DNA of 61,052 nucleotides, taken from assembly GCA_022402525.1 (NCBI GenBank), contig JAKRSB010000004.1, forward strand, positions 1 to 61,052, given 5' to 3'. The notes beneath the pieces were generated by a model. That model did no database searches and had not been told where the DNA came from. It saw nothing but the letters and a program-made list of their open reading frames with translations. Numbering within the stretch: position 1 is the stretch's first letter; the number at the start of each line of letters is the position of its first letter. The stretch comes from Thermosynechococcaceae cyanobacterium MS004 (GTDB lineage: Bacteria > Cyanobacteriota > Cyanobacteriia > Thermosynechococcales > Thermosynechococcaceae). A program made the translations under genes and the position numbers. This document shows, in pieces, positions 2,838-35,525 of this stretch.

Positions 2838-3053
2838 GTCAAGCTGCCGCCCCAGACCTTCCCTAACGGCAACTTGTTCCAGCGCTGGTTTCTGCACCTA
2901 GATTCCAGCGTTGGTGTCTAGGTTTAGGAAACCTCATGGGAAAGTCACGCTGATCTTAATGCGGGTGTGTCACTTTGTGGTAAAAGCGCAAGAATTCCAT
3001 CTACTTTTTTTGGCGATGCCCAGATCAAGATGTCCAGATAAACCTGGGCGATC

Positions 3054-4508
3054 TTAAATCGCAGGCCGCCAAGTCCCATGAAAACTCACGGCGATCGCTC
3101 CTGGGAGCGCAAGGCGACAGACGGGTTCATCTCCAAGGCGATGACTCTCATACACCCAAACCTCACTGGCATGATGTTGGGCGTCATAGATGATGGTCAG
3201 CACCCAGCCCTGATGGGGCTGATGGGGGTTTGGGGCAAAGATCGGTTCGCTGGGATAGCGTTGTGTCCCCAGATTGGCGAGGGTTAAGGTGTCCTGAGTA
3301 TGGTCAAAACAGGCGATCGCATCAAACAGATCCGTGGTGCGGTTGTGGTCTGAATGCGTACTGAGAAAGGTATACCGGCCTGGGCTGCCCGCTGCTGCCG
3401 GAGACACCACCGGAAACTCACAGATGCGGTCATGCAGGCGGTGCGCTTCTGCCACTTCAGCCGTCTGGGGGTTGACCCGTAAGCGCCAGAGCGTTCCGGG
3501 GGCATCGGTTTTAGGCTGACCGGAAGGCACTTCTTTCAAAAATTGATTGGTTTGGAAATCTGCATAGCGCACCACATCCACCACAATCTGGCCGTCGGCG
3601 TCTACAAAACTATTCCCAAAGTGCCACTGAAACCAGGGGTCGACTTCACGTTGCTGAAGCAGCTCTAGCGTTTCTCGATTAATCACCATAACCTGAGTGC
3701 CCCGCTTAGGCTGCCAGCGGAGCGCTTCGCTGTAGCCCTGCCAACCCAGCAGCAGCGGCAATACCTCCAGATAGACGGGCGAAATGAAAAAGACAAGGTA
3801 AGGCCCCGCCAGCACAAAGTCGTGGACTAAGGGGGTGCCCTGGAGCGGGATTTTATTCTGACGCAGCAGCTTACCTCGGCGATCGCAGTGATACAGGTTC
3901 AGCAAAGACTGTCGCCCTGGCTGAATGCCAAAGTTATAGATTTCACCCGTCTGCGGATCAACCTTCGGATGTGCGGAAAAGGTTTGACTTGCCTCCAATC
4001 CCTGAAGATCGTCCATCCCGATGGTCTCTAGGGTCTGTAGATCCAGCGCGTGGGGCAATCCACCTTCCCAGAGCGCCAGCAGCCGATCTTCTAGGGCAAG
4101 GACGGAAGTATTGGCCGCATTTTTAGGGGACAGGGAAGACTCTCCCTGCGATCGCCGCCAGAAGGGTGTAGCCCGTCGCCCAAATCCGCTAAACCGAAAG
4201 GCTCCGGCCTTTTCTTCTGCAAGATATCCAGCGGTCTGGACGCGCCGATAGGCCCCTTGGGCAGCCTCCCCATCAAAATGGACGCCCAGCACCGCACCGT
4301 CCCCATCAAACCAGTGGGTAATCCGCTCTCCCTGGCGCTCAAAAAGCGATGGGCCATTGCGGTAGAGACTTCCCCGCAGACCTGCGGGCACCTGACCTGA
4401 AATGACGCGCAGGGGCGTTAACGGGAATTCTTGAATGGGCTGCGTAAAGGCGCTAGACCAGTGGGCTGCTGCCGATTTTGGGCTAGATTTCTGCTGCGAT
4501 ACAGTCAT
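3054..4508 (-). CDS. Carotenoid oxygenase (RPE65/apocarotenoid 15,15'-oxygenase family)
   Basis: A 484-residue protein, close to the length of the cyanobacterial apocarotenoid oxygenase. The four iron-binding histidines are visible at about H180 (TFSAHPKVD), H229 (LVHDF), H296 (QWHFGNS) and H477 (SFHGTW), with the family motifs LRGSLYRNGPS and HWFDGDG near the N-terminus. These non-haem iron enzymes cleave a carotenoid or apocarotenoid double bond with O2, making retinal-type aldehydes; the exact substrate here is inferred. The start is firm: AAGGAGGG lies 3 nt before ATG. It is divergent from a PadR regulator across a perfect 20-bp palindrome, so repression by that PadR protein is likely. 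Confidence 0.93.
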   Translation of the reverse strand: MTVSQQKSSPKSAAAHWSSAFTQPIQEFPLTPLRVISGQVPAGLRGSLYRNGPSLFERQGERITHWFDGDGAVLGVHFDGEAAQGAYRRVQTAGYLAEEKAGAFRFSGFGRRATPFWRRSQGESSLSPKNAANTSVLALEDRLLALWEGGLPHALDLQTLETIGMDDLQGLEASQTFSAHPKVDPQTGEIYNFGIQPGRQSLLNLYHCDRRGKLLRQNKIPLQGTPLVHDFVLAGPYLVFFISPVYLEVLPLLLGWQGYSEALRWQPKRGTQVMVINRETLELLQQREVDPWFQWHFGNSFVDADGQIVVDVVRYADFQTNQFLKEVPSGQPKTDAPGTLWRLRVNPQTAEVAEAHRLHDRICEFPVVSPAAAGSPGRYTFLSTHSDHNRTTDLFDAIACFDHTQDTLTLANLGTQRYPSEPIFAPNPHQPHQGWVLTIIYDAQHHASEVWVYESHRLGDEPVCRLALPGAIAVSFHGTWRPAI

Positions 4509-22740: not shown

Positions 22741-22814
22741 GACTGACTAAGTTTGACTGACTAAATTGGACTGCCTAAATTGGACGCTGCCAGGATTGGA
22801 TGCTGCCTGGATTG
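22741..22814. repeat. Tandem repeats of 14 and 16 bp upstream of the Uma2 pair
   Basis: GACTGACTAAGTTT, GACTGACTAAATTG and GACTGCCTAAATTG (14 bp) run into GACGCTGCCAGGATTG and GATGCTGCCTGGATTG (16 bp). The second pair seems to have grown from the first by a 2-bp expansion. Confidence 0.85.
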
Positions 22815-22901
22815 GATGGGTCAATGGGCAAGGGTAGGGCTAGAACCTATAATAGAGTGGAAATGCCAGAAGTTAGCTCCTCAAGATGTTGGGAGGTTTC
22901 T

Positions 22902-23507
22902 ATGACCGCTGCCACGACTCCTACATCATCTGTTGATGCTCTGTTACTCAATGTTAGCCATGCCAAGCTCACGGTAACGCCGGAACACTTCGATCAACTT
23001 TGTATGGATAACCCGGATCTACGCCTTGAGCTGACTAAAGATGGAGAGTTGATTGTCATGGCTCCGGCGGGTGGTGAAACTGGTGAAAGAAATCTAGATT
23101 TAGCTGGGCAAGTTTGGTACTGGAATCGCCAGAATAACTTTGGGCAAGGATTCGATTCATCGACGGGCTATGATTTCATAGCATTGGGTGGCGGAAAGCG
23201 ATCGCCGGATGTGTCTTGGATTGAGAAGTCGCGCTTAGAGGGCGTGGAAATTGTTGGATTTATTCCGGTCGTGCCTGATTTTGTGATTGAGCTACGATCT
23301 GCTACAGATACTTTGAAGCCGTTGCAGGAGAAGATGCAGGAGTATCGAGGGCTTGGGGTAAGGTTGGGGTTACTGATTAACCCTCAGAGTAAAGAAATTG
23401 AGGTCTATCGTCCTGGACAGGATGTGGAGATATTAGAGTCGCCTAGTGCGATGGATTGTGGTGAGGTGATGCCCGGATTTGTGCTGAGCATGAGCCGAAT
23501 TTGGTAA
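22902..23507 (+). CDS. Uma2 family endonuclease-like protein (DUF820), tandem copy A
   Basis: 201 residues from the ATG six bases after GGAGG, preferred over an upstream in-frame ATG at 22800. The fold is the Uma2 PD-(D/E)XK type: LRLELTKDGELIVMAPAGGE, KRSPDVSWIEKSR, VPDFVIELRSATDTLKPLQEKM and VRLGLLINPQSKEIEVYRPG. Uma2 proteins are strongly expanded in cyanobacteria; their true role is unsettled, despite the restriction endonuclease label. The adjacent gene at 23531 is a clear duplicate with the same ribosome-binding site. Confidence 0.88.
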   Translation: MTAATTPTSSVDALLLNVSHAKLTVTPEHFDQLCMDNPDLRLELTKDGELIVMAPAGGETGERNLDLAGQVWYWNRQNNFGQGFDSSTGYDFIALGGGKRSPDVSWIEKSRLEGVEIVGFIPVVPDFVIELRSATDTLKPLQEKMQEYRGLGVRLGLLINPQSKEIEVYRPGQDVEILESPSAMDCGEVMPGFVLSMSRIW

Positions 23508-23530
23508 TCATGAACGATTTGGAGGTTTCT

Positions 23531-24136
23531 ATGACAATTGCCACGACTCCTAAATCCTCTGCTGATGTTTTGTTATTGAATGTTAGCCATGCCAAGCTTA
23601 CGGTAACGCCAGAGCATTTTGATCAACTTTGTATGGATAACCCGGATTTACGCCTTGAGCTGACTAAAGATAGAGAATTGATTGTTATGGCTCCGGCGGG
23701 TGGTGAAAGTAGTGAGAAGAATTTTGACTTAGTAATGGAGGTGGGGATTTGGAATCGGCAGAGTGGTTTGGGGCGGGCTTTTGATTCATCCTGTGGCTAT
23801 GATTTCACTGCGATTGGGGGTGGAAAGCGATCGCCGGATGTGTCTTGGATTGAGAAGTCGCGCTTAGAGGGCTTGGAAATTGTCGGGTTTATTCCGGTTG
23901 TGCCTGATTTTGTGATTGAGCTACGATCTGCTACGGATACTTTGAAGCTGTTGCAGGAGAAGATGCAAGAGTATCGAGGGCTTGGGGTAAGGTTGGGGTT
24001 ACTGATTAACCCTCAGAGTAAACAAATTGAGGTCTATCGTCCTGGACAGGATGTGGAGATATTAGAGTCGCCTAGTGCGATTGATTGTGGTGAGGTGATG
24101 CCCGGATTTGTGCTGAACATGAGCCGAATTTGGTAA
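23531..24136 (+). CDS. Uma2 family endonuclease-like protein (DUF820), tandem copy B
   Basis: 201 residues, starting at the ATG after the same GGAGGTTTCT leader as copy A, 23 nt after the stop of copy A. The two proteins differ mainly in the stretch after GGE (SSEKNFDLVMEVGIWNRQSGLGRAFDSS versus its copy A counterpart), while both ends are nearly identical. That pattern points to a recent tandem duplication with gene conversion at the ends. The catalytic strand residues PDVSWI and FVIELRS are intact in both. Confidence 0.88.
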   Translation: MTIATTPKSSADVLLLNVSHAKLTVTPEHFDQLCMDNPDLRLELTKDRELIVMAPAGGESSEKNFDLVMEVGIWNRQSGLGRAFDSSCGYDFTAIGGGKRSPDVSWIEKSRLEGLEIVGFIPVVPDFVIELRSATDTLKLLQEKMQEYRGLGVRLGLLINPQSKQIEVYRPGQDVEILESPSAIDCGEVMPGFVLNMSRIW

Positions 24137-24329: not shown

Positions 24330-24554
24330 TTGCTGAAAAGTTATGAAGCGACCTTGGAGAATGGCCAGATTCATTGGTTGGGTGAACGGCCTGAGGTTTC
24401 TATGGCTCGCATTATTGTGACGGTGTTAGCAGATGAGGGTGTGCCTGGGACTAAACGCCGGACTGCTCCTGCTTCTATTGCGGGTAAGGGTCGCACTTTG
24501 GGAGATATTGTGAGTCCGATTGTGGATGAGCAAGACTGGGATTGTCTAAAATGA
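24330..24554 (+). CDS. Antitoxin-like protein of a vapBC-type pair
   Basis: 74 residues from a TTG start preceded by GAGGAGG. The N-terminal strand pattern (SYEATLENGQIHWLGERP, ARIIVTVL) is that of small cyanobacterial antitoxins paired with PIN toxins. The acidic C-terminus (DIVSPIVDEQDWDCLK) likely contacts the toxin. The stop overlaps the next start by 4 nt (ATGA), showing tight translational coupling. It should neutralise the PIN toxin and repress the operon; DNA-binding residues were not identified. Confidence 0.75.
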   Translation: MLKSYEATLENGQIHWLGERPEVSMARIIVTVLADEGVPGTKRRTAPASIAGKGRTLGDIVSPIVDEQDWDCLK

Positions 24555-24946
24555 TTGTCCTAGATACGCATATTTGGTTTTGGATGGTGACTCAGGACTG
24601 GAAAAGGTTTCCGGCTGCATGGCGTAATGATATTGAACTGGCGGATCAGGTTGGAGTATCGCCGATTTCTTGCTATGAGATTGTGCTAGCTGAAGAGCGG
24701 GGCCGTTTGGAGTTGCCTTGTGCTGCCGAGGATTGGTTTCGGGATGCATTGGAGCCAATGGATATTGTTTTGTTGCCGTTGAATGCGGCGGTGGCTTGTC
24801 GAGCGGTTGAGTTGTCTCCTGTTCATAAAGATCCTTTTGATCGATTAATTATTGCAACGGCATTGGTCTATGACGGACGGCTAGCGAGTGTGGATGGTTC
24901 GTTTCCGCTATATTCTGAGATTAAGAATCGGTTATTAGGTTCTTAG
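24551..24946 (+). CDS. PIN-domain ribonuclease toxin (VapC-like)
   Basis: 131 residues from the ATG overlapping the antitoxin stop. PIN acidic residues are visible: Asp4 in VLDTHIW, Glu in SCYEIVLAEERGRL, and the pair in HKDPFDRLIIATALVY, with a final Asp in LASVDGSF. PIN toxins are Mg-dependent single-strand RNases that stop translation when the antitoxin is lost. All key acids are present, so this toxin looks active, unlike the frameshifted one at 25972. Confidence 0.88.
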   Translation: MIVLDTHIWFWMVTQDWKRFPAAWRNDIELADQVGVSPISCYEIVLAEERGRLELPCAAEDWFRDALEPMDIVLLPLNAAVACRAVELSPVHKDPFDRLIIATALVYDGRLASVDGSFPLYSEIKNRLLGS

Positions 24947-25085: not shown

Positions 25086-25679
25086 TTATTGTTGCTGGAT
25101 GCCCCGGCGAAACTCGCGCATGGCTTCCAGTCTGGATGTCTCACCCATGAGCACACACCGACTGAGTAACCCAAAATCCAAGGTTGCCAGCTCGGGAATC
25201 TGGCTTTGATCAATGCGTTCATAACCAGATTCCCGCAGGCGGTACAGGCTAAACGCCCGATCTTGCCAAAACCAGACTTCTGGCACGCCCAATGCCTGAT
25301 AGCGCTGCAACTTGTTGGGACCGCCACTGGTAAATACTACTTCGATGGATAGATCTGGAATGGGCTTGGATGCCCCAATGCAATAAGATTCATCGGCCTG
25401 AACCGATGCCATACCCTCACGCTCTTGAGTCATGGAACCCGTTGGCTCAAACTCAACACCGACTTCTTCAAAAAAGATGCCAAGCAGTAAGGCAATGATG
25501 CCTTTAAACACTTCATGGTCACGCCCCGGCATAAGAATCTCAATCGTACCGTTGTAATAAAACAAACGAGAACCGGGAAAGTCCTCGAAGCCAGCTTGAA
25601 TCAGCTTGAACTGCTCCCAAGTGCGTTCTGCTAAAACCAGGCGTTGATCGGTTGTGAGGGGTGAGGTTGCAAGGGGCAT
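25086..25679 (-). CDS. Uma2 family endonuclease-like protein (DUF820)
   Basis: 197 residues from ATG 25679 (AGG lies 8 nt before); an upstream TTG at 25697 is less likely. Motifs: RLVLAERTWEQFKLIQAGFE, GSRLFYYNGTIEILMPG, PIPDLSIEVVFTSGG and VPEVWFWQDRAFSLYRL. It belongs to a different Uma2 subgroup from the tandem pair at 22902. The nuclease-fold acids (PDL and IEVV) are kept. The gene is flanked by two relics of the same HsdS-like tail, suggesting insertion into an old restriction-modification locus. Confidence 0.87.
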   Translation of the reverse strand: MPLATSPLTTDQRLVLAERTWEQFKLIQAGFEDFPGSRLFYYNGTIEILMPGRDHEVFKGIIALLLGIFFEEVGVEFEPTGSMTQEREGMASVQADESYCIGASKPIPDLSIEVVFTSGGPNKLQRYQALGVPEVWFWQDRAFSLYRLRESGYERIDQSQIPELATLDFGLLSRCVLMGETSRLEAMREFRRGIQQQ

Positions 25680-25829
25680 GGTTTTGTACCTGAGCAACAG
25701 GATTCTAGCGATTTAGGGGAGCAGTTTTTCGTTGATTTAGTCTATTGTAAGGTGTTTTTCAAAGCGATCGCAGCAGGGATTCGGCATGTGGCGATCGCGG
25801 CCAGGAAACAGGTTTGAAAATGCTGCGGC

Positions 25830-25971: not shown

Positions 25972-26392
25972 TTAAGTCTGTAGGCCGGACAATACGTTAA
26001 TCACGTTGTGAGTTGCTGCTTCATGGAGACGATGATCATTTGTCCAAAGTTCGACGCATTCGTAATGATGTGCGATCGCCAGATGCAATGCGTCAGGGGT
26101 TTTTAGGCGATGCCGCGATCGCAATTCGGCGGCAAAACGATAGATTGATGGCTCGATATCTAGGCTAATCTGCTGCTGAAAAAAGCTTTCATAGCGTTGA
26201 ATGATGGATGGGTTGCCGTTGCGTAGGGGGACAACCAAACATTCCAGTTCAACTAAGGGTGAAATTATAGAACTGCCGATCTTCGGCGATTTCAAAGGCA
26301 TGGCGCACGATGCCACTAAATTGTGGATGTTCTTCGAGCAAGTAAATAACAATGCAGCTATCAAGGTATACCTTGGTGGGATCTAGTCCCAT
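25972..26392 (-). pseudogene. PIN-domain toxin (VapC-like), frameshifted
   Basis: The start ATG 26392 gives GLDPTKVYLDSCIVIYLLEE and a clear PIN beginning, but this frame stops at about codon 48. The rest of the protein (SPLVELECLVVPLRNGN, LKTPDALHLAIAHHYECVELWTNDHRL) continues in another frame to 25972. The shift lies between about 26255 and 26300. Either the toxin is dead or there is a sequencing error. The start overlaps the antitoxin stop by 10 nt. Confidence 0.8.
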
Positions 26393-26631
26393 GCCGATCT
26401 CTCTTCGTTAATCTGCTGGTCGATTTCGGTGGCGGTGCGTTGATGTTCTTGGGGGAGTGGATGAACTTGCAAGAATTGTAAAATCGCGGCGGCGCGGCCT
26501 TTTTCTGGCGGTTCAGATGGCGGTTGAGTTTCGAGGGTGAGGATGGCTCGCGTGGGTGTGGTGACGTGTAATGCTTCTAAGGGGCGGATAACGCCGTTAG
26601 GTTCAATAATGACTTCGATGGCTCTCAGCAT
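26383..26631 (-). CDS. Antitoxin-like protein paired with the broken PIN toxin
   Basis: 82 residues. MLRAIEVIIEPNGVIRPLEA and TRAILTLET are typical of small DUF2281/AF2212-like antitoxins that precede PIN toxins. The C-terminal half is acidic and polar (HQRTATEIDQQINEERSAWD), as expected of a toxin-binding tail. It overlaps the toxin ORF by 10 nt. Since the toxin is frameshifted, this may be an orphan antitoxin. Confidence 0.75.
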   Translation of the reverse strand: MLRAIEVIIEPNGVIRPLEALHVTTPTRAILTLETQPPSEPPEKGRAAAILQFLQVHPLPQEHQRTATEIDQQINEERSAWD

Positions 26632-27277: not shown

Positions 27278-28363
27278 TCAGGTATTCAGATTTTTTAAGA
27301 GAGTATAAAACCACGATTTATAGGTACGATAAATTTTATTGTCTTTACCTCTTACCATGCCTAGAAAATTTATTTTCCCTCGAATTACTTCTAGGAATGG
27401 AGAAACTTCTTCTTCGGAAATACCCAATTCTTTACACTGCTTCTCTCTAAACTTTTTCTCAGCCAAATCAAATCCATATTTTTGCCAAATATTAAGCATA
27501 GAACTAATTTGCCTGACGTATTTACGCTTCACATTAGGAAACTGATTCACAGTAAGGCCAGTGACTTCTTGATGTTGACTTTTGTGCTGCAATCTAATTT
27601 TGTTTGTATTAATTTCAAAACCATTATCTTGGATAATAGAAATTAATCTTTTGCCCAATAATATTTTTCCCTCTTCTTCTTGAGTGTCTGTATATGCAAT
27701 CTCTTTGGGGAAATTAGATAAAGTTGTTGAAAATGTAATGTCATCTGCATATCGAGTATAGTTACATTTACATTCTTTTGCTAACAACCTTAATTGACTA
27801 TCAATTTTTGCACAAATCATATTAGAAATAACAGGAGATGTTGGAGCACCTTGAGGGAGAGATCCAGAATGACAACAAATTTTTGCCAGTATAGTTGCTA
27901 CTTCACTTGAGCGGTTATACGGAGGTGCGATAAAAATTCCTCTAACTCTGCCAAAATGAATACTTTTAAAAAAATCTTTCAAGTCAATATTTAGAACGAA
28001 TCTTTTTCTCAGGTGCTGCTGTGCATTTGTAACAATGCTTCGACAAGGCAAAAAACCATGAACTGTAGCCTTAGGTTCATAGACGCTATATAAAACTTGA
28101 CTAAGTTTGCGTTGTATTATCTTCAGTGCTGTTGAAGGAGCTGATATCTTCCTAGGATTGCCAGACTTTTTAGGAATCAAGAATTCTATATATCTTTGAT
28201 TCTCAGGAGTCTTATAAAGGTGGTAGATAAGTCGATCAAATGAAACTTCTAAAAGAGTAGCAACATCTCTTGTAGTCTTAAGCGAAAAAAAATCTCTCTT
28301 TAAAACATCACAATCTTTATAGAGAAGGAGGGATGAATTCTCTTTGAGTTTAGTCTTAGACAT
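27278..28363 (-). CDS. Retron-type reverse transcriptase
   Basis: 361 residues, the normal retron RT length. Motifs in order: NAQQH at 113-117 (retron NAxxH), VLNIDLKDFF (RT motif A with its Asp), LPQGAPTSPVISN (169-181), YADD (205-208) and VTGLTVN at 267-273, the VTG triplet that marks retron RTs. The thumb ends with GKINFLGMVRGKD. No maturase, endonuclease or primase domain is present, so it is not a group II intron protein. It should prime from a guanosine 2'-OH in its own ncRNA and make msDNA. The ncRNA candidate lies directly upstream (28423-28588). AT-rich like the two genes before it. Confidence 0.92.
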   Translation of the reverse strand: MSKTKLKENSSLLLYKDCDVLKRDFFSLKTTRDVATLLEVSFDRLIYHLYKTPENQRYIEFLIPKKSGNPRKISAPSTALKIIQRKLSQVLYSVYEPKATVHGFLPCRSIVTNAQQHLRKRFVLNIDLKDFFKSIHFGRVRGIFIAPPYNRSSEVATILAKICCHSGSLPQGAPTSPVISNMICAKIDSQLRLLAKECKCNYTRYADDITFSTTLSNFPKEIAYTDTQEEEGKILLGKRLISIIQDNGFEINTNKIRLQHKSQHQEVTGLTVNQFPNVKRKYVRQISSMLNIWQKYGFDLAEKKFREKQCKELGISEEEVSPFLEVIRGKINFLGMVRGKDNKIYRTYKSWFYTLLKNLNT

Positions 28364-28422
28364 TCTTGAAATTTAGAGCAAGCTTGTAAATAATATAGTT
28401 GTGTATTACTTAAAAAAAGAAA

Positions 28423-28588
28423 TGAGAACATCTATAGATATATCCACGTCTTCTGCCCATACAATAGCAAAACTATAGCTACTACATACAGTAATAACCC
28501 TGGATCAGCTAGCGGGCATAATGCTGACATTGAGATACACCATCGCTAATAGTCAATGGAAATCGATATTTTATCTATAGATGTCTCA
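28423..28588 (-). ncRNA. Candidate retron msr-msd RNA
   Basis: In the RNA sense (minus strand) the segment starts with TGAGACATCTATAGATA (plus 28572-28588) and ends with TATCTATAGATGTTCTCA (28423-28440). These are complementary over 17 bp with one bulge, like a1/a2 arms. Between them lie TTAGCGATG near 28541-28549 (the local context of the branching G in Ec86-type retrons), a short UCAGC/GCUGA stem, and a longer hairpin: CUG-UAU-GUAGUAGC against GCUAUUGU-AUG-CAG with several G-U pairs, suited to msd. The segment ends 59 nt before the RT start codon. The branching G is unusually far (about 25 nt) from the arm, so exact ends are tentative. Confidence 0.62.
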
Positions 28589-28619
28589 GCTTTTGACAAT
28601 ATAACCCGATTTTGAAAAA

Positions 28620-30500
28620 TTAGCTATCGCAAGAGTATATTTTTTTATGTACCCATTTTTTTTCATAACTTGATACCCGATATTTCGGTTGAGATCTTAG
28701 TGATTTTTTGTATAGAGCTATACTCTCATGAAATTTTCCTTGCTTTTCTAAAATGAAGCCATATTCTCTATAAATCACATAGTTATCAGGTGAGGGAGGC
28801 TCAAGTAAAGCTGCTTTTTCATAGCTTTCTAAAGCTTCATTATATTGCTCTACTTCGACAAGAGCTTTTCCCTTCTTCCACCAAACATTGTAATCCTTTT
28901 CCTCTAACTCAAGAGCTTTATCATATGCATCAACTGCTTCAATGTGCCTGCCGAACTTTTTTAAGGTATTTCCTTGCTCAGTTCTGATTTTATAGTCATT
29001 TGGAGAAAGTAAAGATGCTCTTTCATAAGATTGAATTGATTCTTCAATGCGACCTAATTCTTTAAGAATAACAGCTTTCTTCTTCCATAATTCTACATTG
29101 CCTGAATCACTTTCTATTTCTTTCTCACAAAGTTTTAGCTTTTCTTTCAGATCTCTATGTTTTAGTTCATCTTCTCTGCTCAACAATCTAGTTAGTAAAT
29201 TGATATCTTGATAACCTTTTCTCTCGACAAGATTGCAGCTTAATTTATAAGCATCTCTAATTGTTCGGTCACAGCCTAATTGATAGTAAAACTCTTCAAT
29301 AAAAATACTGGATTTGCTGTCTTCTAGCTCATCGCTTACTCCAATCAAAAAGTCAACATATTGAACGATTTCTTTAGCTTGGATTTCTGAATAACATCTG
29401 TTCATAACAATGCACTTTATGCTTCTATTATGAAGCTGAAGCAACTCAGCTATTAGTTTTGATTTTCTTGGTTCTTGAAGTGAATTTTTTTCAGGATTTT
29501 CTTCTATTGCCAACTTTTCAATTCCACTGTCACGGCCAAAAATATTGATAATATAAGGCTCAATAGCTGATAACTCTTGAGAAAGTTCGGATGCGCTTAT
29601 ATCTGATCTTTCTTCAAGATAAAATTGCTTGCCATTTTTAGCTCTTCTTAATGCATCTCTAATTTCTTTATGATTTTGTTTCCAGATTGCATGTTCTATT
29701 TTTTTAGGATTGGATGGCAGTATAAGGATTGTCCTTGAAACCTGTTTTACTTGTGCCACATCACTGCCATGAAAATGAGTTCCTCCATTAAAAATGGTGT
29801 TATCAACGCCGAGCTGAGTTTGAGAAACTGTATTGCCTAAATTATTTTGACTGTTTAGTAGATCTCTAGATAAATCGATAACTAAATTATTCCAGCGTTG
29901 ATCTTGCTGATGAAACGAACGCTGTTGCTCGACTAGCTCAGGGAACTGAGTCAGAATTATCGTAGAGGGTACAGCACCCCCACCCAAATCACTAGAACGT
30001 TCACGTGTGAATTTTATAATTCCACAGACCTTACCTGTTCGTTGGTTTAGCAAAGGTGATCCACTCATTCCCGGTCTTACTTGACCCGCAGCAAACTTAA
30101 TTAATGCTGGCTCATCTCCTGTTAGACCTTCACAAGTAAAGGTTACAGGGCAACCATTTGGAAAGTCTTTGTCAGGATAACCAAACATGTAAAGCTCATC
30201 GCGAGATTGGACTGCTTTATCTTCTAAATAAGCACAAGGCGTGTTTCTATCAACTGGAGATGTTACTTTCAACAAAGCCAAATCATATGGCTCAGGTAGT
30301 GATTTCACAACAATTGCTGTTGCCCAGTTTTGAGTTGATTGCAATTTCACTCGAATTGTTTGTTGGTCTGTTTGTTCTATTACATGAGTACAAGTGAGAA
30401 TCCACTCAGGAGTCACAAAAAAACCTGTCCCCCAGCCTGTTTCCTCCGGACGAGAAAGCTTCACTGTACATTGATTCAGAAAACTCTCTAGCTCACTCAT
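28620..30500 (-). CDS. Trypsin-like protease fused to a CHAT-like domain and TPR repeats
   Basis: 626 residues. Residues 1-190 are a trypsin-like serine protease with His39 (LTCTHV), Asp73 (YDLALLKV) and Ser146 (GMSGSPL). Residues about 256-430 match the CHAT-like caspase domain of cyanobacterial proteins (ILILPSNPKKIEHAIW, RDALRRAKNGKQF, VMNRCYSEIQAKEIVQYVDF): Cys369 is kept, but the usual SGHG is FGRD, so the His is Arg323. Residues about 460-615 are at least four TPR repeats. It starts 3 nt after the Trypco1 stop and ends 256 nt before the RT gene. It is probably cytoplasmic. Likely role: effector of a conflict system, with CHAT as a sensing or scaffold part. Protein targets unknown. Confidence 0.85.
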   Translation of the reverse strand: MSELESFLNQCTVKLSRPEETGWGTGFFVTPEWILTCTHVIEQTDQQTIRVKLQSTQNWATAIVVKSLPEPYDLALLKVTSPVDRNTPCAYLEDKAVQSRDELYMFGYPDKDFPNGCPVTFTCEGLTGDEPALIKFAAGQVRPGMSGSPLLNQRTGKVCGIIKFTRERSSDLGGGAVPSTIILTQFPELVEQQRSFHQQDQRWNNLVIDLSRDLLNSQNNLGNTVSQTQLGVDNTIFNGGTHFHGSDVAQVKQVSRTILILPSNPKKIEHAIWKQNHKEIRDALRRAKNGKQFYLEERSDISASELSQELSAIEPYIINIFGRDSGIEKLAIEENPEKNSLQEPRKSKLIAELLQLHNRSIKCIVMNRCYSEIQAKEIVQYVDFLIGVSDELEDSKSSIFIEEFYYQLGCDRTIRDAYKLSCNLVERKGYQDINLLTRLLSREDELKHRDLKEKLKLCEKEIESDSGNVELWKKKAVILKELGRIEESIQSYERASLLSPNDYKIRTEQGNTLKKFGRHIEAVDAYDKALELEEKDYNVWWKKGKALVEVEQYNEALESYEKAALLEPPSPDNYVIYREYGFILEKQGKFHESIALYKKSLRSQPKYRVSSYEKKWVHKKIYSCDS

Positions 30501-30503
30501 GAC

Positions 30504-30824
30504 TCAATCTTTTTGCTGAGTTTCCCATTCCAAAGTAATTTCTAAATTAGCTTTTCCTGAACCTTTGACAATTACAGCGCTTAGCTGCCCAGATTCGATC
30601 GCTAACTCCATGCCAAACTTAACAGTTGCCTTTTTAGGTTGAACTTTTTTTATTGGGGTTGCAATCATCTGTACTACACCTTCAATTGCATCAGCAACAG
30701 GTTGAAATTGTTTCGTGTCAAAGGCTACATCTTCTCTTCCAGTCTTCGAAACCTCAATTCTAACCATTGCCCCATTGGGTAGCTTAATTGGAACAGTTTC
30801 ATTAGTAGAGTTTTGAAATGTCAT
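30504..30824 (-). CDS. Trypco1 (CU044_2847 family) trypsin-co-occurring protein
   Basis: 106 residues. The sequence IKLPNGAMVRIEVSKTGRED, ADAIEGVVQMIATPIKKVQPKK, TVKFGMELAIESGQLSAVIVK and NLEITLEW matches the CU044_2847/Trypco1 family. These small beta-rich proteins are encoded next to trypsin-like proteases in predicted NTP-regulated bacterial conflict systems. It may be a regulatory subunit or a substrate of the protease. The first gene of the island on the minus strand, with a 3-nt gap to the protease gene. Confidence 0.82.
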   Translation of the reverse strand: MTFQNSTNETVPIKLPNGAMVRIEVSKTGREDVAFDTKQFQPVADAIEGVVQMIATPIKKVQPKKATVKFGMELAIESGQLSAVIVKGSGKANLEITLEWETQQKD

Positions 30825-31163: not shown

Positions 31164-31796
31164 CTACCGAATCACAACCTGACTAATCCCTTTGAGAATT
31201 TGCAGAACCTCATACAGCCGATTGGCACGAGACAGCGGGCTATAGGTATCTGAAAAATCATACTCAGGATTTTCACCCTGCTTAACCTTCAGAAAAATAA
31301 AGCTATTTCCATTGGTCACCATGCCAAACAAAGGCTTGTCTTGGATTGGGCTCGCCATCATATAGGCCAGTAGTTGAGGAACCCCTACCTCAACGTCAAA
31401 CTCCGTTTCTTTCGACTCAATCACCGCTCGCCAAAATTGGTCTTGAATCACCAAAAAATCAATGCGCCCTCGAAGCATTTCGTCTTCGTCAACGGTTTCA
31501 ATCTCCACAGAGACTTCAGCGCGTAATCGAAAAGGCGGGTCGTAAAAGCCAGCCATTTCGAGCAATCGCGATACCACAATGGCATTCACCGCCCCCTCCG
31601 TCACCTGCCCCGCCTCACGGTGATACCGAAACCGCTGGCGGATCCGATCCAACGTTTCCCGTTCTAATTCATCTAAGGCGGGTAAATGGGTGTACCATTC
31701 CGTGAAAAACTGACTGTCTGGTGATCGCCGCAGACCAAACCGTCGATGAACATCGTTTAAGGTTTTAACAACCTGAGTGACCGCCGTTTGTACCAT
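31164..31796 (-). CDS. PD-(D/E)XK nuclease-fold protein (restriction endonuclease subunit R-like)
   Basis: 210 residues from the ATG that follows GGAGCGAGG; the in-frame ATG 13 codons upstream has no such site. The core GRIDFLVIQDQFWRAVIESKE, followed by EVGVPQLLAYMM, carries D...ExK residues of the PD-(D/E)XK fold. C-terminal strands read LFGMVTNGNSFIFLKV. Cyanobacteria hold many such single-domain proteins labelled restriction subunit R, but no methylase or helicase is near. The role is unknown; it ends in its own terminator and is not part of the retron operon. Confidence 0.8.
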   Translation of the reverse strand: MVQTAVTQVVKTLNDVHRRFGLRRSPDSQFFTEWYTHLPALDELERETLDRIRQRFRYHREAGQVTEGAVNAIVVSRLLEMAGFYDPPFRLRAEVSVEIETVDEDEMLRGRIDFLVIQDQFWRAVIESKETEFDVEVGVPQLLAYMMASPIQDKPLFGMVTNGNSFIFLKVKQGENPEYDFSDTYSPLSRANRLYEVLQILKGISQVVIR

Positions 31797-31898
31797 CAGC
31801 CCTCGCTCCGCTCGACTATCTCTATGGTATGGCACTCAAGCAATCCACTGCTGGAGCACACCTAGGATAGGCGATCGCCTTTAATGATGCCGACCTGC

Positions 31899-34800
31899 TT
31901 AAACACTCGATGAAGCCACAGGCTCAGAAGACCGTACATCAGCCGTCGCTGAATCTAAACCTTTCACGGAACGATTGGTTTGACGCGGATGGTTATGAAT
32001 GGGCGATTCACCATTTGATTGCGCCCCTTCTGCTAGGCAAGCTTGCAGAGATTTAAGCAGATCTTGTTCTAGGTAGGGTTTTGTGAGGTAGTGGTTAGCC
32101 CCCAGTAGTTTGGCAATGCCTCGGTGCTTGTCGCTACTGCGAGACGTTAGCATAATGATGGGCAGCGCCGCAGCAGAATAGGACTTGCGGCAGGTACTTA
32201 AGAATTCAAACCCGTTCATCGTTGGCATTTCTACATCCGAGAACACGGCTTGAATGGTGGAGTCTTGCCGTAGTTTTTCGAGCGCTTCCTTGCCATCCCC
32301 AGCCTGGACTACCTGATAGCCAAACTTTTGGAGCGTCAGGGTTACGTTTTGGCGGGTGGTGAGAGAGTCGTCTACCACAAGAATGGTTTGAGATTGAGTC
32401 ATCACGGGCAGTTCCGCCGCCGCAATTGCGGGCATCTTCCCTGTCCCGCTCAGCACGAGGTCTTGCTGAGTTGCGAACAATGCCGCACCATCCATCACAG
32501 GCACCAAGGAACCATCCCCTAAAATGGCGCAGCCATAGAGGTATTTGGGCGGCGTTCCGGCGGTACCAAAGGGCTTGATCACCAGTTCTTGCTCATCTAA
32601 AACCTGATCAACTTCTAGGGCGATGACTTCCTTACCGCTGGCAATCAGCAGAAGGGGAACCTTCCCTTCCTGAGGTAAGGCCATGACTTTAGATTTTTCG
32701 GCAAACCCTTTGGGCAGCGGGTAATGGTAGACAAACGTGGAGGGTGAATAGAGCGGAATGGTGCGATCTTTTTGGCGATAAAATCGCTGCCCATCGCGGG
32801 ATTCAATCTCTTTTTCGGACGCTGCCACAATGGACAGGAGTGAATCGACCGGAATGGCGAGGGTATGGTTTTCGGCGCTAAAGACCAGCAGTTTGGCAAT
32901 GGTGAGGGTGAGGGGAAGGCTAAGGGTGAAAGTGGTGCCTTTGCCTACTTCGGAGGCGATCGCAATATTTCCCTTCAGGGTCTGTACTTGGTTCATGACC
33001 GCAGACATTCCCATGCCCCGCCCCGACAGATCGCTGACTTCTGCGGCGGTGGAAAAGCTGGGTTCAAACAGACATTTATAAAGCTGCGCAGTGGAGGCGG
33101 CTTCAGCTTCAGCGGGAGTGAGCAGACCTTGGGCGATCGCCGTTGTGCGAATGTTGTCCGGGTCAATGCCCCGTCCGTCATCCCGCACTTCAATCAAGGT
33201 TTGGTTGCCTCGATGATAGGCACGAACTTCAATAGTGGCCGCTGGAGGTTTATTTTGAGCTAAGCGTTCGGCGGCGGATTCTGTGCCGTGGTCGAAGGCG
33301 TTGCGAATGAGGTGGACAAGCGGGTCGTACAGTTTTTCTAAGATGGCTTTATCCACGAGGGTGGTCGCACCGTACTGCTTAAAGATGACCTGCTTGTCAT
33401 GCTTGGTTGCCAAATCCCGCACCATGCGCGGGAAGCGATTGAGAATGTCTCCTAGGGGAATCATTCTGGCCCAGAGCAGGTCATTTCTAACCTGTTTGAG
33501 GGTTTGCTGTTTCTTGCGCTGAATTTGCTGCGATTGCTGAGTGAGGAGTGAAATATCCCCGATGGTTTCGCCCATTTGGGCAATTTCTTCGAGGGCTTCC
33601 TGAAGCATGGTGTACAGGCCGCTATAGGAATCCATCTGGAGCGGATCAAAGTCGGCAAGGGAGGCTAGGTCTGGGTTTTGAGTTCCCTGGAAGGAACGGC
33701 GCGTGACATCTGAAAATTGACTGCTGACATCCGACTGTAAACTCTGGTCCATCCAGGTTTGCAGGTTCTTACTCAGGTCTTCAAAGTGTAAGAACCGCTG
33801 CTGCAAGCGCTGGAGTGTAGCCTGAAGCTGTTGGCTTTGGAGTAGGGAGCCATTTTCGTGAGTAACCAGTTCCCCCACTAGGTTATTGAGCCGCTCAAGC
33901 CGCATAAAATCGACCCGAACGGAGTCGGTCATGTAGGCGTTGGAGGCTATTGAAGGCTTGGGTTGGTCTTTCGCAGCGGAAGTGGTAGCAGCTTCAGGTT
34001 CTGAGGGGCTGTCCTGAGGGGATGGTACAACCAAATCATCGGACGGGGATGGGATCGGATCGGCGTCCCTCTCCGTAGGCATGACTTCAGCAGCAGCCGG
34101 AAATGTTGACCAATCCTGGATAGAATCTAGATCCAGAGAGGCACTGCCAAAAATATCCTCTAGGACATCTCCCGAATCGGCGATCGCGGGGCTTGAGGAT
34201 TCCTCTGGCTCAAAGGCAGACTGCCCAAAAATATCTTCTAGGACGCTGCTGTCTTCAACGGCAGATTCCCCAAAAATATCCTCTAGGGCGCTGCTATCTT
34301 CAACGGCAGATTCTCCCAAAATATTCTCTAGGGCGCTGCTGTCTTCAACGGCAGATTCCCCAAAAATATCTTCTAGGGCGCTGCTGTCTTCAACGGCAGA
34401 TTCTCCAAAAATATCCTCTAGGGCGCTGCTATCTTCAACGGCAGATTCCCCAAAAATATCTTCTAGGGCGCTGGGGTCGGCAAAGCCTTCTAGCGCAGAC
34501 TCCCCTGAATCGGCGACTGGCTCAGGCGTGGAAGCATAATGCCCAAACGCTAAGGCATCCGGTATTTCAGGATGGATGGGGAGTTCTAGCCCCTCAAACG
34601 AAGCGGCATCGTAGAGATTTTCTAGATTGGTCCGCTGGAACTCAAAGTGTGTATCTTCTTGAGCGTCTAAGCTATGTTCCGTGCTATGTTCCGCCGGAGG
34701 TTGGGGAAGTACGAAATGATCCAGGTCAGCAGGGAGAGAGGGCTGAGCTAAGGCTAAGAGTGCAGGACTGGGGCTACCGCCGTGGGTGCGATCGCCTTCC

Positions 34801-35525
34801 AGAACCCCAACCTGAGCTGCCTGAAGAGACTCAATGGTTAGCTGCCCAATGGTCAAGGCTTGTTCCGGGTGACAGTCCAAGGCTTGAAGGGTCGCCTGGG
34901 CGATCGCACTAAAGCCCGCCAACCCCAATAGGTCGCCAATGCCTACAAAGACCTCAGCCGTGGCCCGAATTTCGCCTGCGAGGGGTTCTACTTCAGGGTG
35001 CTGTAGCACCTCCGTCAACCGATCAATGCCCCGTTGGACATCGCCAGAAAACACCTCATAGACAATATCAACCCCCAACTCAGCCGCCGTGGGTAGCTCC
35101 ACATCGGCCCCGATTTCAAGCTGAAAGACCGCTTCAAGGAGGGTGAAAATCGGTTCCGCCTTGGCCCAAGCCGCTCCATCATCAAACTGCCCCGTATTCA
35201 ACTGCTCCAGGAGGGGCAGCCGGAGACAGTCATAGGCTTGGAGCAGAGCTTCTTCGAGATCTGCATCTGGTGGATCGGTGCGGCGATAGAGGGCGCGAAA
35301 TACATCTTCGAGCTTATGGGCAATCTTTTCGATGCCCGGTAGCCCCACACTGCTGGCCCCACCCTTAATTGAATGGGCTGCCCGCATCAAGTCATGTACA
35401 TGGGGAATATCGTACTGCGATCGCAGGTTGAGTAGCCCATCTTCTAGACTCTGCAATAGGTCTAATGCTTCTTGCTGAAAAAACTGATAGGCCTGATCGC
35501 GGATGGAAGGGTTAGTCGCCGTCAT
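31899..35525 (-). CDS. CheA-type hybrid histidine kinase (HmpE/PixL-like)
   Basis: 1208 residues. Order: Hpt domain with His51 (MRAAHSIKGGASSVG); a second helical, Hpt-like region (about 145-240); a long acidic linker with five to six copies of SALEDIFGESAVEDS (about 345-440); a dimerisation and ATPase part (HLIRNAFDHG, VRDDGRGID, GRGMGMSAV); a CheW-like domain; a receiver (ILVVDDSLTTR, FSDVEMPTMNGF); and a Ser-rich tail. It receives signals from the MCP encoded just upstream and phosphorylates the CheY-like proteins of the operon, steering type IV pili. Last gene of a five-gene operon, 32 nt after the MCP gene. Confidence 0.93.
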   Translation of the reverse strand: MTATNPSIRDQAYQFFQQEALDLLQSLEDGLLNLRSQYDIPHVHDLMRAAHSIKGGASSVGLPGIEKIAHKLEDVFRALYRRTDPPDADLEEALLQAYDCLRLPLLEQLNTGQFDDGAAWAKAEPIFTLLEAVFQLEIGADVELPTAAELGVDIVYEVFSGDVQRGIDRLTEVLQHPEVEPLAGEIRATAEVFVGIGDLLGLAGFSAIAQATLQALDCHPEQALTIGQLTIESLQAAQVGVLEGDRTHGGSPSPALLALAQPSLPADLDHFVLPQPPAEHSTEHSLDAQEDTHFEFQRTNLENLYDAASFEGLELPIHPEIPDALAFGHYASTPEPVADSGESALEGFADPSALEDIFGESAVEDSSALEDIFGESAVEDSSALEDIFGESAVEDSSALENILGESAVEDSSALEDIFGESAVEDSSVLEDIFGQSAFEPEESSSPAIADSGDVLEDIFGSASLDLDSIQDWSTFPAAAEVMPTERDADPIPSPSDDLVVPSPQDSPSEPEAATTSAAKDQPKPSIASNAYMTDSVRVDFMRLERLNNLVGELVTHENGSLLQSQQLQATLQRLQQRFLHFEDLSKNLQTWMDQSLQSDVSSQFSDVTRRSFQGTQNPDLASLADFDPLQMDSYSGLYTMLQEALEEIAQMGETIGDISLLTQQSQQIQRKKQQTLKQVRNDLLWARMIPLGDILNRFPRMVRDLATKHDKQVIFKQYGATTLVDKAILEKLYDPLVHLIRNAFDHGTESAAERLAQNKPPAATIEVRAYHRGNQTLIEVRDDGRGIDPDNIRTTAIAQGLLTPAEAEAASTAQLYKCLFEPSFSTAAEVSDLSGRGMGMSAVMNQVQTLKGNIAIASEVGKGTTFTLSLPLTLTIAKLLVFSAENHTLAIPVDSLLSIVAASEKEIESRDGQRFYRQKDRTIPLYSPSTFVYHYPLPKGFAEKSKVMALPQEGKVPLLLIASGKEVIALEVDQVLDEQELVIKPFGTAGTPPKYLYGCAILGDGSLVPVMDGAALFATQQDLVLSGTGKMPAIAAAELPVMTQSQTILVVDDSLTTRQNVTLTLQKFGYQVVQAGDGKEALEKLRQDSTIQAVFSDVEMPTMNGFEFLSTCRKSYSAAALPIIMLTSRSSDKHRGIAKLLGANHYLTKPYLEQDLLKSLQACLAEGAQSNGESPIHNHPRQTNRSVKGLDSATADVRSSEPVASSSV
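34216..34485. repeat. Six 45-bp tandem repeats inside the cheA-like gene
   Basis: Units start at 34216 (decayed), 34261, 34306, 34351, 34396 and 34441; the last diverges at its end. Each encodes 15 residues, consensus SALEDIFGESAVEDS. The near identity of the units points to recent expansion. A related sequence, VLEDIFG, occurs again just beyond. Confidence 0.92.

Follow-up and report, generated by a model that had tools for sequence, protein, structure and literature searches.

In retrons of types I-C, XI and XII, the effector is fused to the reverse transcriptase (RT), which makes sensing and killing inseparable by simple genetics. The fused effector is a Toprim domain in Retron-Eco2/Ec67 (type I-C), a trypsin-like protease at the RT C-terminus, within one gene, in type XI (PADLOC PDLC02959/02960), and a TIR domain in type XII. 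In the Retron-Eco2 RNA, rG15 is linked to DNA and is followed by AUUU (positions 16-19) and a stem-loop, and the branch at rG15 is visible by cryo-EM (PMC12405507). Trypsin-co-occurring domains (Trypco1 and Trypco2) are described from another setting, namely trypsin and CHAT conflict systems (Kaur et al. 2020, PMC7159879) that are built around MoxR-vWA/VMAP NTPases. A literature search, with the main retron classification outside its scope, turned up no retron described as having a TPR, CHAT or protease effector.

The locus described here lies in a 61,052-nt stretch of DNA from Thermosynechococcaceae cyanobacterium MS004 (contig JAKRSB010000004.1), which we refer to as the window. Its minus strand carries, in order, a Trypco1 gene, a gene for a 626-aa protein, a 256-nt spacer, and a gene for a 361-aa RT (Table 1). 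Our comparisons support the view that a genuine retron RNA is encoded in the spacer, from which the adjacent RT would make a small molecule of branched RNA-DNA, and that the locus is probably one of a little-described set of putative cyanobacterial anti-phage systems whose varying killer enzymes are carried by one conserved adaptor protein. It adds a new member to the retron RNAs; an Rfam scan of the window found no family up to its gathering score. Covariance model R1 (see below) finds the RNA as a single copy in its own genome. The phage collection holds distant RTs only (at most 44% identity to the window RT), and RTs on plasmids are below 60% identity to it.

Table 1. Features of the retron locus (window coordinates; all on the minus strand, listed in the direction of transcription).
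Feature	Position	Strand	Basis
Trypco1 (trypsin-co-occurring domain 1) protein	30504-30824	-	Pfam PF19493, E 1.6e-18
Probable effector-adaptor, 626 aa	28620-30500	-	Pfam; fold match to SAVED-CHAT 8tl0
Trypsin domain (Trypsin_2) of effector-adaptor	30018-30431	-	Pfam
Pseudo-CHAT domain of effector-adaptor	29169-29744	-	Pfam/fold match
TPR repeats of effector-adaptor	28671-29162	-	Pfam
msr-msd spacer, 256 nt	28364-28619	-	Between effector-adaptor gene and RT gene
a1 arm (outer helix 28573-28587, inner helix 28565-28569)	28565-28587	-	Pairs with a2; compensatory changes
Proposed branching guanosine	28564	-	rG15 position of Retron-Eco2; inferred
AUUU preceding first msr hairpin	28560-28563	-	Sequence
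First msr hairpin, CCAUUG-ACUAUUAG-CGAUGG	28540-28559	-	Covariation in 53-sequence alignment A5
Single-stranded msr tail, UGUAUCUCAAUGUCAGCAUUA	28519-28539	-	Well conserved, five closest relatives
Putative msd template region: basal stem GCCC/GGGC, variable hairpin, AGAAGACGUG ahead of a2	28445-28518	-	
a2 arm	28424-28444	-	Pairs with a1
U7 tract 3' of a2	28412-28418	-	Sequence; T-rich stretch there in many relatives
Retron reverse transcriptase, 361 aa, unfused	27278-28363	-	PADLOC, NCBIfam, structure match

The RT carries the retron motifs reported for it in an initial annotation of the DNA, NAQQH (residue 113) and VTG (residue 267), and also a YADD motif (residue 205). Its top PADLOC profiles are those of type XI (RT-Protease_XI, 2e-138), type XII, with a near-equal score (RT-TIR_XII, 1.5e-130), and type I-C (RT-Toprim), it matches the Ec67 and TIR retron models of NCBIfam, and the nearest solved structure is that of the Retron Ec67/Eco2 RT (E 3.6e-62). 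By these profile and structure matches, we assign it to the retron RTs of the Eco2/type XI/type XII superclade. Unlike the RTs of these three types, the window RT ends after its own domain: RVT_1 is the only Pfam domain above cut-off, with neither the TIR of type XII nor the Toprim of Eco2. A trypsin-like effector is common to the window and type XI, but in the window it belongs to a protein encoded upstream, which also has pseudo-CHAT and TPR parts and lies beside Trypco1, rather than to the RT. Most cyanobacterial relatives likewise have unfused RTs; among relatives with fused effectors, Pfam identifies trypsin in L019, L023, L025, L028, and L030 and TIR in L016, and L024 is an RT-Toprim by profile. 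In a tree of 121 RTs, the window RT falls in a seven-member group with an SH-aLRT support of 100. A related RT in a genome of the same genus (L180 in G001), with genes for a PD-(D/E)XK and a vWA protein nearby, is interrupted by stop codons; it may be a decayed retron.

The RNA itself was proposed in the initial annotation from two complementary arms in the spacer, at 28423-28440 (TGAGAACATCTATAGATA) and 28572-28588 (TATCTATAGATGTCTCA; plus-strand coordinates). These arms do form a 17-base pairing interrupted by a single bulged base, and an inner helix (28565-28569 with 28440-28444) lengthens them. The spacer contains a perfect inverted repeat of 13 bp (loop of 80 or more), a length reached by none of 300 dinucleotide shuffles (mean 7.1, maximum 12). 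The predicted fold of the minus strand at 28415-28600 (186 nt) has an energy of -54.5 kcal/mol (z -3.4), and all 200 shuffles were less stable. On the minus strand, 28424-28587, immediately 5' of the RT, adopts a fold with the proposed a1-msr-msd-a2 order, with the internal sequence TTAGCGATG in place at 28541-28549. The arms also contain a palindrome, TCTATAGA, which could mislead in one sequence alone; this concern is settled by the arms of relatives, which have changed in sequence yet still pair.

Loss of the arms upstream of close RT homologues had been set as an outcome that would refute the retron reading; instead, we find both the arms and the msr core kept there, with heavy compensatory change. 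In the four relatives closest to the window (L003-L006; 65-74% RT identity), the same RNA separates the upstream gene from the RT, and dozens of relatives, ranging from cyanobacteria to Pseudomonas, Bacteroidota, and Clostridia, carry it immediately 5' of the RT. Among the five closest loci, the msr core is well conserved (consensus AUUUCCAUUGACUAAUUGCGAUGGUGUAUUUCAAUG), in contrast to the variable msd interior; the msd basal stem is partly conserved. A plain MAFFT alignment of these five loci (A2) has 89.7% of cells paired and two-sided changes at 10 of 30 pairs, with a covariation score of 0.307 versus at most 0.147 for slid partners. In a 53-sequence alignment (A5), 90.5% of cells are paired, two-sided changes occur at 28 of 29 pairs, and the score rises to 0.660 (at most 0.147 slid), in an alignment that is fitted to the model; its first msr hairpin has 97.5% of cells paired and two-sided changes at all 6 pairs. 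Since A3 and A5 are covariance-model alignments, and thus fitted to the model, the unfitted alignment A2 and matches in held-out sequence are the cleaner evidence.

For the latter we used two covariance models, R1 built from the five closest sequences and R2 from 35 sequences. R1 places the RNA immediately 5' of the RT in other cyanobacteria; its matches from Pseudomonas and other taxa are weaker. R2 recovered 19 held-out RNAs in 685 kb, all 19 directly 5' of an RT, in taxa that include Chloroflexi, Clostridia, Bacteroidota, Nitrospinota, and candidate phyla; of 13 further matches at E 1e-5 or better in later loci, 12 were so placed. Type XI members from Pseudomonas (L019, L020, L022, L030, and L038) have the same RNA family directly 5' of their RTs. 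The RNA model is a means of finding such systems, whose unfused RTs are called type XI by protein models. One locus (L110) has two tandem copies of the RNA, at 2639-2788 and 2934-3114 on its minus strand, upstream of a single RT.

The initial annotation took the G of TTAGC as the likely branch point, noting its distance of about 25 nt from the arm. That G sits inside the first msr hairpin, where it closes the loop. We compared the window with the Eco2 RNA sequence (locus L150), and because the Eco2 layout of G, AUUU, and stem-loop recurs in the window, where the a1 helix is followed by G28564, AUUU, and the stem CCAUUG/CGAUGG, we tentatively place the branch at G28564. This guanosine, which adjoins the a1 helix, is probably the better candidate, and with the branch there the objection from distance falls away. 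Neither R1 nor R2 gave a match at the proven Eco2 RNA when searched against the Eco2 locus, and homology to that RNA thus rests on the common layout.

Most relatives have G at the position equivalent to 28564. L004, L005, L006, and L169 have A, and the Pseudomonas type XI members listed above have a base other than G; the base is also not G in L118 and L132. Either other bases would serve for branching in these relatives, or the branch would lie elsewhere in their RNAs. This variation, together with the other modes of priming known from DRT systems (PMC12483538), would also fit an RNA that templates the RT and yields an unbranched or otherwise primed product instead of strict msDNA. We consider such a product unlikely, given that the RT scores highest with retron models and that the msr is laid out as in Eco2, whose branch has been seen directly; branched msDNA remains our preferred reading.

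The upstream protein begins with the protease domain recognised in the initial annotation, which Pfam assigns to Trypsin_2 and in which the triad H39/D73/S146 is intact. This part was judged by sequence, as its model in our first fold was of very low confidence. The middle domain (residues 253-444) is mostly modeled at pLDDT 67-88 in the full-length prediction, with lower values at 331-345, and aligns with SAVED-CHAT (PDB 8tl0_C) at Z 17.1 and an rmsd of 3.7 over 181 residues. CHAT structures are its top Foldseek matches; a model of the CHAT part by itself was weaker, with an unchanged best match, and a search with the full-length fold was dominated by TPR structures. In sequence, the domain matches CHAT proteins of cyanobacterial genomes at E values of about 1e-41 to 1e-46. 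The HFSGHG motif that holds the histidine of these CHAT relatives reads FGRDSG in the window protein, and the SGHG histidine is lost in all five retron proteins compared (the window and four relatives), in which C369 is invariant. Modeling and sequence thus identify the domain as a CHAT caspase-like fold that lacks the catalytic His-Cys dyad, with the cysteine kept and the histidine gone; we term it pseudo-CHAT.

Across the RT clade, the pseudo-CHAT and TPR parts remain alike (whole-alignment identity to the window protein 32-61%), and the N-terminus is exchanged. It is a trypsin accompanied by Trypco1 in the window, L003, and L166 (the last may be frameshifted, because the gene reads as several frames), an active-type CHAT domain accompanied by Trypco2 in L004/L168 and L169, and an unassigned domain in L005 and L006. 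Outside this arrangement, L171 has trypsin and TPR in separate genes beside Trypco1, and L112/L179, L175, and L176 have a SLFN_AlbA_2-TPR gene at the equivalent place. The proteins of these relatives all end in a C-terminal motif, P-x-[YC]-R-x-[AS]-x-Y...Y. A scan for this pattern gave 22 occurrences in 410,943 residues of open frames, some of them in duplicate loci, and each in a gene that precedes one of these RTs; the scanned set consisted of loci other than the window. The window protein has a tail of the same type (YKKSLRSQPKYRVSSYEKK..., with V in place of A/S before S), in which the core fits and H stands where others have the last Y (PKYRVSSYEKKWVHKKIY). The constant adaptor and tail suggest how an effector encoded in trans would be held, and the swapped N-termini suggest that the killing activity alone differs between members.

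Conserved gene order, co-conservation, and the tail motif probably tie this trans effector gene to the retron. Alternatively, the retron could be real and the trypsin-pseudo-CHAT-TPR gene and Trypco1 could form a separate conflict system that lies upstream by chance. Trypco1 or Trypco2 with trypsin modules do exist without retrons in other systems (PMC7159879), and heterocystous relatives of the window RT have no such upstream gene. Coincidence is nevertheless a poor explanation, and slightly poorer than an unbranched product, when all seven members of the window RT clade have an upstream pseudo-CHAT-TPR gene, the equivalent place in four more relatives is taken by SLFN_AlbA_2-TPR or by separate TPR genes whose products carry the tail motif, and the enzyme class is that fused to the RT in type XI. 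Set against the systems of Kaur et al. (PMC7159879), the adjacency of window Trypco1 to a trypsin domain is familiar, as is that of Trypco2 to a CHAT protein in L004 and L169; the difference is the partner, a retron RT and RNA in place of MoxR-vWA/VMAP NTPases. In heterocystous and other cyanobacteria with RNA of the same family, a protein of 210-310 aa is encoded downstream of the RT (L007:6100-6969, L012:6097-6939, L103:2600-3469, L104:2659-3573, and others). That of L007 has no match in Pfam or PADLOC; this protein may be an effector of unknown type.

Overall, we hold with considerable confidence that this is a retron locus with the order Trypco1, effector/adaptor, msr-msd, and RT, in which msDNA made by the RT would restrain a probable trypsin effector acting in trans. 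In the mechanism we propose, the RNA would fold through a1 and a2, the 2'-OH of G28564 would serve the RT as primer, and reverse transcription of the msd would give branched msDNA. A complex of RT and msDNA would then hold the trypsin-pseudo-CHAT-TPR protein, probably via the TPR repeats and the conserved C-terminal tail, and, by analogy with characterised retrons, restrain it until the msDNA or the RT is disturbed by infection. The trypsin domain, set free, might cut Trypco1 or other targets and so stop the infected cell, which would make the system a defence.

A broader reading, toward which we lean only slightly, is that of a plug-in cyanobacterial retron class, in which one RT-msDNA sensor would control swappable trans effectors (trypsin, CHAT protease, Schlafen/AlbA_2, or unknown) through a pseudo-caspase/TPR/docking-tail adaptor, and in which the msDNA of some members may start at A. 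An effector that is unfused, modular and built on an inactive CHAT scaffold is new as far as profiles and our literature search reach. In this locus sensing and killing are split between genes, and the same RNA and RT stand beside different effector domains on one adaptor, so that exchanging or shortening the adaptor would test the coupling of msDNA to effector directly. If the proposal is true, a dead caspase-like scaffold and the Trypco1/trypsin conflict modules of cyanobacteria enter retron biology.

The U7 tract downstream of a2 could be the 3' end of the RNA. Its closeness to the a2 arm, and the T-rich sequence after a2 in many relatives, would also suit a mere intrinsic terminator or leader between two genes, with stem and U7 limiting RT expression, but this is very improbable for a structure whose loop of about 120 nt contains a conserved msr core and hairpin, which still lies directly 5' of the RT where no gene is close upstream, and which a simple terminator scan does not report.

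Further genes lie on both sides of the retron. Two overlapping tandem genes for Uma2 (putative endonuclease) proteins of very similar sequence occupy window positions 22800-24136, and a third Uma2 gene lies at 25086-25697. Genes for PIN-domain (VapC-like) proteins at 24330-24946 and 25972-26631 each have a small open frame ahead of them and look like toxin-antitoxin pairs. A PD-(D/E)XK gene is found at 31164-31835, and in gene content the PIN pairs, the retron, and this gene resemble a defence region. Beyond it, 31899-35525 encodes a CheA-like hybrid kinase whose linker contains a run of near-identical repeats (SALEDIFGESAVED).
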